Source: Deltaproteobacteria bacterium
GTDB lineage: Bacteria > UBA10199 > JADGCS01
Reading direction: 5' to 3'
Length of the DNA stretch: 35,764 nt
NCBI GenBank assembly: GCA_015228875.1
Contig: JADGCS010000011.1
Coordinates: 1-35,764 of the forward strand
Part shown: positions 4,116 through 8,332 of the stretch, piece by piece
Numbering within the stretch: position 1 is the stretch's first letter
How the letters are laid out: each line of letters opens with the position of its first letter
The notes under the pieces: generated by a model
What the model saw: only the letters and a program-made list of their open reading frames with translations
Told to the model about the DNA's origin: nothing
Databases searched by the model: none
Translations under genes and position numbers: made by a program

Positions 4116-4802
4116 ATGATTACCAGTCCCATGGATTACATGAACGAGGTCAAGGCAAAGAAACAGGTTGTCGGGACCTGGGGCTTTAACTCCAACATGG
4201 ATTTTTCAAGGACAAGTTCGGAAGAAACCAACGTGTGGTTTTTCGAACAGGTCTTTAATTTTCTGAGGGCTTTTTTTGGACTGGTGATGCCTGACAATAT
4301 GGAAGTCATCACCTACAACGCAAACAAACACATCAAAAAACAGGGGCTGGATCAACAGACCTTTCTGGATGAACTCATGCTTGTCATGAAGGGCTTAAAA
4401 GAACCCATCTGGACGTTCCGACTCAACTTAAACATTGTTGGATTTATCCGCAGTCACTACGACCCCGACAACCCAATCCGTGTACAGATACAGGAGCCCA
4501 GTGCCTTTATCGCCTGGGGCGGTCCCGATGAGACCGGGTTTCAGAACTTTTCAATCAGTTACAACCTGTTCAGTTCAAGCACCTTAAAGGGTTCTGACGA
4601 AATGCTCTGGACAGTCAATCAACCCCTGCTCGAAAAAGGGCTCAAAAAGTGGGAGATGCAAACTGGCAGAAGGATTGCTGCGGTTCAATCTAATGCCGAG
4701 GCACGAGGTGGCAGGGCCACGCAGTATGGATTTAGAAAGCCCCTGGTTAAAAGGCGCAGGACCCCCGATACAGCCACAAGACCCCCCCCCGGCCCGCGCT
4801 AG
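4116..4802 (+). CDS. Unrecognised cytoplasmic protein with basic, Pro-rich tail
   Basis: This 228-residue protein belongs to no family I recognise. There is no signal peptide or membrane segment. Residues 1-180 look like a folded aromatic-rich domain (TWGFNSNMDFS, FFEQVFNFLRAFFGLV, WTFRLNLNIVGFI, AFIAWGGPDETGF). The last 35 residues are basic and Pro-rich (RKPLVKRRR, TRPPPGPR) and look disordered. The start has a good CGGAG six bases upstream. It stands alone: divergent from ubiD and separated by 245 bases from the next sigma-54 promoter. A run of nine C (4782-4790) encodes the PPP of the tail, and a slip there would change the C-terminus. Coding is supported by length, codon pattern and ribosome-binding site; the function is unknown. 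Confidence 0.75.
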   Translation: MITSPMDYMNEVKAKKQVVGTWGFNSNMDFSRTSSEETNVWFFEQVFNFLRAFFGLVMPDNMEVITYNANKHIKKQGLDQQTFLDELMLVMKGLKEPIWTFRLNLNIVGFIRSHYDPDNPIRVQIQEPSAFIAWGGPDETGFQNFSISYNLFSSSTLKGSDEMLWTVNQPLLEKGLKKWEMQTGRRIAAVQSNAEARGGRATQYGFRKPLVKRRRTPDTATRPPPGPR

Positions 4803-5144: not shown

Positions 5145-5555
5145 ATGCAGGGGGGTCAGAGACACTTTCTTTCATGGTGCGATAACACAATCGTGGATAA
5201 ACAGGAATACATATTCAAATCGTTTCGTAAACGCGGTCGAAGACCAAAGATGATCAAGCCCGTCGACCTCGATTACATCCATCAAAAAGACGGGTATTAC
5301 GATGGCAAGATATTTTTCTCGTTTGACAAGGTCACCTACACCTTTGTTGATAATGAAGAGGTCGTTGTCCTGCACTACGACAGTGTCAAGAACAGCCTTT
5401 TCTTAAAGGGCCACAAGATTGTTTCGCTAAACCAGCACCCTGACCTCGAACTCTACTTGTCAAAATTTAAAAAATGTCTGATAGAAAATTCCAAGACAGA
5501 AAAATTTGTCAAACCATTTGATGCCGTTATTTCAAGTCTCTGTCGTGCCAATTAA
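5145..5555 (+). CDS. Unrecognised small protein, first gene of the flagellar unit
   Basis: The protein is up to 136 residues, soluble and not recognised. The core (about residue 36 on) shows alternating beta-like segments (GYYDGKIFFSFDKVTYTFV, EEVVVLHYDSVKNSLFL), then a helical C-terminus (DLELYLSKFKKCL). The N-terminal 35 residues are basic (FRKRGRRPK). The start is uncertain: the ATG at 5145 has no Shine-Dalgarno, and GTG 5193 or ATG 5250 are alternatives. It is the first gene after the sigma-54 promoter and ends 11 bases before the next gene, so it probably belongs with the flhF/fliA transcript. A flagellar role is inferred from position only. Confidence 0.65.
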   Translation: MQGGQRHFLSWCDNTIVDKQEYIFKSFRKRGRRPKMIKPVDLDYIHQKDGYYDGKIFFSFDKVTYTFVDNEEVVVLHYDSVKNSLFLKGHKIVSLNQHPDLELYLSKFKKCLIENSKTEKFVKPFDAVISSLCRAN

Positions 5556-5566
5556 TTCTGCCCCGC

Positions 5567-6226
5567 ATGGAAATCAAACCCATCAAAAAAATAAAATCAG
5601 TCGGGCAGGAGCGGATTTCTCCGGACAACTATCTCAAACGCATCCCCTTTAATACGCCACTGACCAGCTCAAACAGACAGACTGTCGCCTTTGTCAATCA
5701 CAGGCTTTACTTTGAGGGAAAAGAGATGGGAGAGGCCATCAACGCATGCATGCAAAATACCCCTCATCACCTGTCGCAAATGGCGGCAGAGCTGGAAGCC
5801 TTTAAAGAGGCGTGCCTTAAAAAAAGAAAAAATAAAAAAAACAAGCGGGGTCTTTTGGGTATTTTAAGCACCAACCCTGAAGGCTACGACGAAGACGAAC
5901 TCGCGGTCATCTTTGCGCTCAGTGATGCCTACATAAAAAAAATCAGCGATCTTATCAAAAAAAGGTACGATGAGACCAAAGACGGGATCAACCTTGTCTT
6001 TGACGAGAATGCACAGCTCATCATCAACTCGATGAACATCCATGCGTTTGTAGATCAGTGCCGGGCGAGCCCCAATCCTAAATCCCTGCTTTTTTTAAAA
6101 GGTGTCCGCTCCCGCCTCGCCCATGTGTTGGAAAACAAGGTCAGCAGCAGAAACTACGAGCGCATCAGGGATGTGATTTTGGAACTCTTTAAAGAGATTG
6201 ACGAGATCCTTGGAAAAGGGGGGTAA
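5567..6226 (+). CDS. Unrecognised charged helical protein in the flagellar unit
   Basis: This 219-residue soluble protein has no recognised domain. It is rich in charge and mostly helical in appearance, with a Lys-rich patch (KKRKNKKNKRG, residues about 85-95) in the middle and a helical C-terminal half (ALSDAYIKKISDLIKKRYDE, YERIRDVILELFKEIDEIL). It starts 11 bases after the preceding gene with no purine-rich Shine-Dalgarno, which suggests translational coupling. The order unknown-unknown-flhF-fliA is unusual, since flhB/flhA or motility genes often sit here. A flagellar assembly or localisation role is possible but rests on context alone. Confidence 0.75.
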   Translation: MEIKPIKKIKSVGQERISPDNYLKRIPFNTPLTSSNRQTVAFVNHRLYFEGKEMGEAINACMQNTPHHLSQMAAELEAFKEACLKKRKNKKNKRGLLGILSTNPEGYDEDELAVIFALSDAYIKKISDLIKKRYDETKDGINLVFDENAQLIINSMNIHAFVDQCRASPNPKSLLFLKGVRSRLAHVLENKVSSRNYERIRDVILELFKEIDEILGKGG

Positions 6227-6366: not shown

Positions 6367-7584
6367 ATGATTACCAAAAAATACCTGTCCGAATCCCTTT
6401 CCGAGGCGATTGAAACCATCAAGAAAGAAATGGGACAAAAGGCATCGATTACGGCTACGCGAACCCTAAAAGTCAAAAAGGGGTTTTTGCGTTCCGCAAA
6501 AAAATGCATCGAAGTCACTGCAAAGGTCGATGAATCATACCTTACCCGGGAACAACTGGTGATGCTTGGGGCAGAGGTGGATCTGGTGGGAGAGAAAAAA
6601 ATGCCAGACCCTTCAGACGGCGTCCGGGTGAGTTTGTCCAAAGAAGCCCGTGAACAGGCCCACAAAGCGCAACAGCAGGAACAAATAGAAAGGGCAGATC
6701 ATTTTAAAAAGGAGATAGAAAAAGAAGCAGCAGAAATTGCAAACAACACGCCAGAACCACAAGCGGAAACAACAGCACAACCCCCGCCTGTCAAGGACAA
6801 ACCCGTGCAGGAAGAAACACAAGAGATCCTTGCCGGTATCGATGCCCTGCTTAAGGAGCAGGGGATTGCAGATGATCTGATAGCCCTCTGGCATCATCAT
6901 TTTAAAAAAATGTCTCAGGGTTTGTCTCAGGATGATCTGCTTAACGAATGTGTTGGTTTTTTTCTGGATCGTTTTATTCCGTTTGAAACAAACCTCCCCA
7001 AAATAGCGAGTTTTGGAGGTCCGGCGGGCTCCGGCAAGACATCACTGGTCTTAAAACTGGCCTTTCTCATAAAAAAACAAAAGAAAAAAGTAGCCATATT
7101 TACCCTGGACGGCAATCTTGGTGTCATCGAGCAAATGAAACAGGCTGCGTCAAAAATGGATTGCCCCCTCTGTGTGATCTATCAAATCAGGTCTTTCCAA
7201 AATGCCCTTAAAGAGTATGGCGATTACGATCACATACTTATCGACACGGCCTCTGTCTCGGCCAAAGAGACACAAGAGATAGAGGCCCTGCAAAAGCGGC
7301 TTGTCCAGATGGAGGCACCGTCGTTTGTTGTTCTTTCCGCCCGCGATATCGACAACGAAAGAACCGTAAAACTTTTTAAAAACTTTGAGGTGCTGGGTCT
7401 TAATTTTACGAGGATTGACGAGCTTTACACGGCGGGTATAGTGTACAACCTACTGCATAAAGCAAGACTCCCCGTGGCTTATTTTGGGATCGGCACAAAA
7501 ATAGACGAAGACATAGAAACGGCGAGCGGTGAGCGTCTGGTGTCCGTTCTCTTTGGTTTGCAGGACGATGGACAGATGGGATGA
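6367..7584 (+). CDS. flhF: FlhF, SRP-type GTPase for flagellar placement, with divergent G motifs
   Basis: This 405-residue FlhF has the standard three parts. There is an N-terminal B-type region (MITKKYLSESLSEAIETIKKE matches the FlhF start pattern), a Gln/Glu/Pro-rich variable linker (about 95-150), and an NG domain with a P-loop GPAGSGKTS at about 218-226. FlhF is an SRP-family GTPase that sets flagellum site and number at the pole. The G1 P-loop is intact, but G2 is LDGNLGVIEQM where DTYRxxAxEQL is usual, G3 is IDTAS where DTAGR is usual, and G4 is TRIDE instead of TKLDE. GTP hydrolysis may therefore be weakened. The tail (YFGIGTKIDEDIETA) fits the family. fliA overlaps its 3' end, and flhG, usually between them, is missing. 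Confidence 0.9.
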   Translation: MITKKYLSESLSEAIETIKKEMGQKASITATRTLKVKKGFLRSAKKCIEVTAKVDESYLTREQLVMLGAEVDLVGEKKMPDPSDGVRVSLSKEAREQAHKAQQQEQIERADHFKKEIEKEAAEIANNTPEPQAETTAQPPPVKDKPVQEETQEILAGIDALLKEQGIADDLIALWHHHFKKMSQGLSQDDLLNECVGFFLDRFIPFETNLPKIASFGGPAGSGKTSLVLKLAFLIKKQKKKVAIFTLDGNLGVIEQMKQAASKMDCPLCVIYQIRSFQNALKEYGDYDHILIDTASVSAKETQEIEALQKRLVQMEAPSFVVLSARDIDNERTVKLFKNFEVLGLNFTRIDELYTAGIVYNLLHKARLPVAYFGIGTKIDEDIETASGERLVSVLFGLQDDGQMG

Positions 7585-8332
7585 TGGTTGTTCTATGACC
7601 TATCAAGAATACACAAAGACCTCCCTGCGTCTGGACGAAGAACAAAAAACCATTGTGGTCGAATACATGCCCCTGGTTAAGTTTATTGCCCAGCGCATCA
7701 AGGATCGTCTGCCAGGTCATATTCAAATCGAGGACCTCGAACATGCCGGTGTGCTGGGGCTTATGGAGGCCGTCTGTCGTTACGACGAAACGCAAAGCAA
7801 CCAGTTTAAGACCTACGCCGAACACAGGATCCGCGGTTCTATTCTTGATGACCTAAGAAAAAATGACTGGATGACCCGCACCGGGCGCGAAAAATACAAA
7901 CTGCTTGAGTCCACCATCTCCAAACTCGAAAAAGAACACAATCGTGAAGTCAGTTCGGACGAAATCGCCAAGGCCCTGGGCATGAAGATGGACGATTACT
8001 TTGATTTTCTCAACGATGCCAAGACCGGGGTTTTCTTGAGTTTGGAAGATGTTGTTTCCAGACGCGACATGGGGGGGCAACAGCTTGACGACCAGATGAG
8101 CGAGCCCGAAAAAAAGGTATGGATTGATCAGGTCAAAAAGCTCATGGCCGAGGAGATAGAAAATCTCAGCAAGACCCAGAGGCTTGTCCTCTCCCTTTAC
8201 TACTACGACGAACTGACGCTCAAGGAGATCGGAGAGGTGCTCAACAAGACAGAGTCGCGAATTTGTCAGATTCACAACGAGATTATGGAAAAACTCGCAC
8301 GACGCCTCCGAAAAAGAGTCCAGTACGTTTAA
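7568..8332 (+). CDS. fliA: FliA, flagellar sigma-28 factor
   Basis: This sigma factor of the FliA/SigD/WhiG group directs RNA polymerase to late flagellar promoters. Region 2 is seen in LVKFIAQRIKDRLPGHIQIEDLEHAGVLGL and FKTYAEHRIRGSILDDLRKNDW. Region 3 is RTGREKYKLLESTISKLEKE with a SSDEIAKALGM helix, and region 4 is LSLYYYDELTLKEIGEVLNKTESRICQIH. The start at 7568 (255 residues) is chosen for AGGA about five bases upstream; it overlaps flhF by 17 bases. The ATG at 7595 is an alternative that would begin just after the flhF stop. Its likely targets lie in the same window: sigma-28-type promoters precede flagellin, fliD, fliS and a methyltransferase gene. No anti-sigma factor FlgM is present in the window. 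Confidence 0.95.
   Translation: MDRWDDGCSMTYQEYTKTSLRLDEEQKTIVVEYMPLVKFIAQRIKDRLPGHIQIEDLEHAGVLGLMEAVCRYDETQSNQFKTYAEHRIRGSILDDLRKNDWMTRTGREKYKLLESTISKLEKEHNREVSSDEIAKALGMKMDDYFDFLNDAKTGVFLSLEDVVSRRDMGGQQLDDQMSEPEKKVWIDQVKKLMAEEIENLSKTQRLVLSLYYYDELTLKEIGEVLNKTESRICQIHNEIMEKLARRLRKRVQYV

Follow-up and report, generated by a model that had tools for sequence, protein, structure and literature searches.

The flhF gene analyzed here encodes a divergent variant of FlhF rather than a standard member of the family, and the genome carrying it lacks flhG, the gene of the FlhF activator. FlhF specifies the site at which a cell assembles its flagellum, and its partner FlhG turns it off, a step that requires an arginine of FlhF. 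Within the protein, the catalytic arginine of the G2 motif was found to be lost, whereas the FliG-interaction domain (FID), the P-loop, and the aspartate of G4 are retained; these losses and retentions are shown, with the absence of flhG referring to a genome of 94.8% completeness. The protein is likely to represent a naturally occurring FlhF that binds GTP without hydrolysing it and serves as a static tether, both the binding and the missing hydrolysis being inferred without biochemistry.

The flhF gene and its GTPase motifs

The window, i.e., the whole stretch of DNA analyzed, comprises bases 1–35764 of contig C22 (57,405 bases) from a genome of 4.58 Mb, assembled into 228 contigs and termed G000 below. 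The following features, all located on the forward strand, are relevant for the interpretation (motifs as deduced from the alignment):

6367..7584, +, flhF: intact open reading frame of 405 aa with FID, linker/N region, and SRP-type G domain; the catalytic G2 loop is degenerate
6367..6534, +, N-terminal domain (residues 1–56): aligns with the FID; beta-alpha-beta-beta predicted with high confidence
7015..7044, +, G1/P-loop GGPAGSGKTS: intact
7108..7137, +, G2/IBD loop DG-NLGVIEQM: catalytic arginine lost, one residue deleted
7243..7257, +, G3 DTASV (DTAGR in canonical FlhF): glycine replaced by serine, arginine by valine
7408..7422, +, G4 TRIDE (canonical TKLDE): guanine-binding aspartate kept, lysine replaced by arginine
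7595..8332, +, fliA (sigma-28): TIGR02479, 240.8 bits; alternative starts at 7529 and 7568

The SRP54 G-domain model PF00448 matched the protein at 85.7 bits, indicating the NG GTPase fold of the SRP family. The FlhF model TIGR03499 was the top-scoring NCBIfam family with 117.9 bits, and because this value remains under the equivalog cut-off of 174.15, the protein is termed a divergent variant. Structure modelling, proposed as a check in the preliminary description, yielded an AlphaFold model with a mean pLDDT of 83, for which the best PDB matches obtained by means of Foldseek were the FlhF entries 2px3 (B. subtilis), 8r9r (S. putrefaciens), and 2px0. The N-terminal domain shares 35–47% identity with relatives, compared to 26–33% for the G domain; thus, the FID (described in PMC11236974) is the best-kept region of the protein.

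Compared to the canonical G2 sequence DTYRIGAVEQL, the corresponding loop is one residue shorter and lacks the arginine, but still contains the aspartate and the glutamine. The preliminary description had claimed the loss of this arginine (LDGNL for DTYR), which was confirmed by the alignment and has to be supplemented by the deletion. It had also regarded the altered G3 motif (IDTAS for DTAGR) as a part of the same decay. The substitution itself was confirmed; however, its use as a marker for the loss of FlhG was ruled out, since the G3 glycine or arginine is altered in many FlhF proteins encoded along with flhG, among them variants reading DTGGC, DTAGM, and DFAS.

Directly downstream of flhF, fliA occupies the slot held by flhG in the relatives G003 and G028, in agreement with the earlier statement that FlhG is normally encoded between flhF and fliA. 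The postulated overlap of flhF and fliA was only partly supported, as it hinges on where fliA is taken to start: GTG at 7529 or ATG at 7568 results in an overlap, whereas ATG at 7595 leaves a gap of 10 bp. The order fliA-GT-TPR is common to the window and the three FlhF-bearing relatives (G003, G010, and G028). Upstream of flhF, three proteins without a Pfam match are encoded on the forward strand (4116-4802, 5145-5555, and 5567-6226) at the place taken by flhA in the FlhF-bearing relatives. Two unknown genes upstream of flhF were considered as FlhG substitutes, and no similarity was detected in the loci examined. The true FlhA of G000 is encoded on contig C206 (898 bits), with an unrelated ATPase gene, and not flhF or flhG, downstream of it. 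Furthermore, G000 harbors two additional FlhA-family export gates (C22:39792-41816 and C165:15753-17825; loci L314 and L313; 461 and 538 bits), one of them just downstream of the window, which possibly represent non-flagellar type III secretion gates.

Absence of flhG from the genome and its occurrence in relatives

The absence of flhG beside flhF, as claimed initially, was confirmed and extended to the whole assembly of G000 by profile, motif, and neighborhood searches. A profile built from true FlhG proteins of the same phylum scored 567–582 bits on these proteins themselves; in G000, no match exceeded 36.7 bits, the top one being a Soj-type ParA. The MinD/ParA-like matches in G000 were rejected as FlhG, those with readable context being ParA/Soj-, ArsA-, Mrp-, or cobyrinate-synthase-like. 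Sites encoding DQAxxLR, the FlhG motif whose glutamine is co-catalytic (PMC12826062), occur six times across the genome (control: four, i.e., chance level), none of them as an N-terminal helix in a credible gene. Both usual neighborhoods of flhG, after flhA and between flhF and fliA, are assembled in G000 and do not contain the gene. The incompleteness of the genome (94.8%; 228 contigs) remains a caveat. Two findings had been named beforehand as refuting the initial claim, namely an flhG elsewhere in the genome or an alignment in which the motifs are conserved; no flhG was found, and no alignment placed a conserved G2 arginine in this protein.

The phylum and class samples consist of the same 46 genomes, of which only four encode FlhF (G000, G003, G010, and G028). 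When genome contigs were searched, the window FlhF alone as a query returned nothing, and an alignment of four rows was successful. In G028 and G003, the gene order is flhA-flhF-flhG-fliA and the G2 arginine is kept (DHFR and DYFR, respectively). G010, which is 98% complete, features flhA-flhF-fliA without flhG, and its arginine is lost (DYDI). Accordingly, flhG and the arginine are both present in two genomes and both missing in two (G010 and G000). The best MinD-like protein of G010 (C19) was rejected as FlhG: it lacks DQAxxLR and is encoded beside citrate synthase, and a related protein occurs in G029, which gave no FlhF match.

In the FlhA tree, G000 was placed outside the group of G028, G003, and G010, and a clade uniting G000 and G010 was rejected (AU p 0.00096). 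Since this tree separates both genomes, the paired loss of flhG and the arginine arose twice within the phylum, with the reservation that G000 also forms a long branch in the FlhA tree. The FlhF proteins of G000 and G010 are likewise located on long branches, and the former has no close relative; for this reason, purifying selection can be demonstrated only in SAR324.

Recurrence of the paired loss in other lineages

For SAR324, 52 genomes were analyzed, with FlhG being called at an E-value of 1e-50 or better. The G2 arginine is kept in all 31 flhG-bearing genomes. A marine clade comprises 17 genomes without flhG, 16 of which have lost the arginine, with G2 reading DTNHSSAAxQI or similar; G070 still has it. 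A protein of G046 (C186) was tried as FlhG and rejected, as it lacks DQAxxLR. The sister genomes G089 and G090 (loci L293 and L292) are devoid of flhG genome-wide and keep the arginine, and this pair represents an intermediate stage as well as a control provided by nature. Because flhG-less sisters still possess the arginine, the order in SAR324 is deduced to be activator first, arginine second. G091, the FlhG-bearing sister of this pair, already encodes cysteine at the position of the G3 arginine. In its simplest reading, the history of SAR324 thus comprises the G3 change from arginine to cysteine, then the loss of flhG, and then that of the G2 arginine. For the lineage of the window, this order of losses is inferred.

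Of 67 conserved G-domain sites, 52 show no change within the flhG-less SAR324 clade, and the site of the G2 arginine is among the most variable. G1, G4, and G5 are conserved and only the catalytic loop drifts; the median dN/dS of the G domain amounts to approximately 0.075 (simple NG86 estimate). Such a pattern does not fit a gene on its way to loss, as shown for SAR324 only.

Among 110 loci read in Bdellovibrionota, arginine or lysine occupies the G2 site in all 74 loci with flhG nearby. All 14 broken G2 sites are found in loci without flhG, where fliA starts between -4 and 87 bp from the end of flhF. In this phylum, the search for flhG was limited to a distance of 2.5 kb from flhF. Lysine, and not arginine, predominates at the G2 site of loci L347-L424. 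For many FlhG proteins of Bdellovibrionota, no DQAxxLR helix was detected by the search, so the activation of FlhF may differ in this phylum. The assumption that retention of arginine or lysine coincides precisely with the presence of a DQAxxLR helix proved to be only partly true, since FlhF keeps its lysine next to many Bdellovibrionota FlhG proteins in which the search recognized no such helix.

Altogether, 236 FlhF loci were combined, the flhG-bearing set being drawn partly from named FlhF loci of Geobacter-type, Bacillota, Nitrospirota, and other genomes. Arginine or lysine is present in 179 of 179 flhG-bearing loci and lost in 32 of 57 flhG-less ones (Fisher p 2.8e-24, kinship ignored). 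In an FlhF tree from which the motif columns had been excluded, seven out of seven inferred arginine losses fell on flhG-less branches, which account for 24.4% of the tree length (binomial approximately 5e-5). An independent-pairs sign test restricted to well-supported branches resulted in two to five concordant and no discordant pairs, which is too few for significance. The initial claim that decay of the activated site accompanies the loss of the activator therefore holds widely for the G2 arginine. As flhG and the arginine were both lost repeatedly, in lineages independent of each other, the pairing is not due to chance; for one of these lineages (SAR324), purifying selection was shown. The remaining 25 flhG-less FlhF proteins retain arginine or lysine, showing that the arginine can, but need not, disappear once FlhG is lost.

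Possible mechanism and alternative readings

In the proposed mechanism, flhG would have been lost first, and without the activator, the catalytic arginine of the G2 (IBD) loop would have been free to decay. FlhF would have been retained since its work in placement needs no turnover: the FID would hold FliG, and via FliG also FliF, and the NG domain would hold the polar site, making FlhF a static tether instead of a cycling switch. This reading rests on a protein without FlhG and without the arginine, set against published data. FlhF of V. alginolyticus hydrolyses GTP only with FlhG; its variant R334A, affected in the same arginine, shows no GTPase activity with FlhG, and polar localization, flagella, and motility are normal, whereas G380A (the G3 glycine) keeps flagella at reduced motility (PMC6092412). 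In P. aeruginosa, a polar flagellum is still assembled with FlhF R251G, but swimming is paralysed; that this variant was reported to be locked in the GDP state and to affect swimming in a dominant-negative manner is a point against the model (PMC6855561). In Shewanella, the FID binds FliG, the NG domain binds HubP independently of the nucleotide, and the hydrolysis stimulated by FlhG is proposed to enable FliG to interact with FliM/FliN (PMC11236974). Placement without GTP turnover, as suggested at the outset, is thus supported by the mutants R334A, G380A, and R251G; the absence of turnover in the present protein was inferred and not measured. Nucleotide binding, missing hydrolysis, and polar tethering in this organism likewise remain inferences, and the model assumes that FliG is released to FliM/FliN without FlhG by a route that is unknown.

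The window FlhF shares FID and NG domains, the SRP-GTPase fold, the P-loop, the G4 aspartate, and the neighboring fliA with the canonical FlhF/FlhG switch of B. subtilis, Shewanella, and Vibrio, but differs by the missing FlhG, the deleted G2 arginine, and the serine replacing the G3 glycine. The laboratory mutants R334A and R251G have lost the same residue, and without GTPase activity, their flagellum is still polar. However, they were engineered in cells still possessing FlhG, whereas the state found here is natural and fixed together with the loss of flhG; the GDP-locked and swimming-paralysing nature of R251G is a further difference. FlhF of B. cereus is on record without an FlhG homologue (PMC5069341, PMC7218170) and functions in flagellar arrangement, but was reported as a GTP-dependent homodimer. 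FtsY R333(138)A and other Class II IBD-loop mutants lack the homologous arginine; in R333(138)A, tight complexes form and activation fails (PMC517823). Being an SRP receptor, FtsY differs from FlhF and illustrates that complexes are possible without GTPase activation. Hence, FlhF without FlhG (B. cereus) and GTPase-dead FlhF (from mutants) were already known. A naturally GTPase-dead FlhF, its coupling to the loss of flhG, or the order of losses was not reported in the papers searched, a set from which most subscription papers are missing.

A decaying FlhF, with uncontrolled placement, relaxed selection, and changes devoid of mechanistic meaning, would be compatible with the long branches of the G000 and G010 proteins, the TIGR03499 score under the cut-off, and the additional alterations in G3 and G4. 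This explanation appears unlikely, as the reading frame is undisrupted, conservation is highest in the FID, and the predicted structure shows the FlhF fold; in SAR324, low dN/dS values and drift confined to the catalytic loop also speak against it. The possibility that flhG resides in the 5% of G000 missing from the assembly, with FlhF being merely divergent, draws on the completeness and the fragmentation of the assembly. It is considered very improbable, because both usual neighborhoods are assembled without the gene and the same paired loss occurs in the 98%-complete G010, and likewise in the 17 flhG-less SAR324 genomes (arginine lost in 16).

Turnover might also persist via another activator, with the FlhG helix moved or replaced and FlhF using other residues. 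In favor of this, helices detached from the FlhG ATPase exist (e.g., L103 and L168), and lysine commonly replaces arginine in Bdellovibrionota. However, FlhF of L103 and L168 keeps arginine or lysine, no DQAxxLR candidate was found in the G000 genome or near flhF of G010 or L154, and an activator presenting glutamine would still need the absent arginine, rendering this alternative improbable as well. As to the detached helices themselves, a 62-aa DQAQTLR reading frame overlaps the flhF stop in L103 (7398-7583; Bdellovibrionales RIFOXYD1_FULL_53_11; MTSDQAQTLRELMQERREDGG...) and resembles the FlhG activator helix minus the ATPase, with FlhF keeping the G2 arginine. The related loci L366, L335, L332, L336, and L316 encode an intact FlhG helix with a shortened ATPase part or a degenerate P-loop. 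In L168 (6705-7262; Caldilineaceae ACE_CHL8), the interval between flhF and the sigma-factor gene encodes a protein of 186 aa, parts of which are hydrophobic and membrane-like; the C-terminal end of this protein, DDQAASLRRMAADSH (DDQAASLRR) possibly represents an activator helix on a new carrier, and FlhF keeps its arginine.

Besides the static tether, a bolder reading may be considered, for which, taken as a whole, the arguments on either side appear balanced. GTP-locked FlhF would be a recurrent natural end-state, reached by about seven arginine decays in three phyla after the loss of flhG and turning FlhF into a turnover-free tether. The GTP switch would then serve the control of flagellar number and assembly by FlhG rather than placement, and elsewhere, FlhG would shrink to, or be replaced by, a bare activator helix, with arginine or lysine being kept.

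The need of FlhF for GTP hydrolysis is disputed between species and has been argued from point mutants. Lineages that drop the activator and then the catalytic residue, while strong selection acts on the remainder of the protein, offer evidence from nature that turnover is dispensable for placement. They provide an order of losses as well as testable proteins, and hint that the switch serves the control of flagellar number by FlhG.
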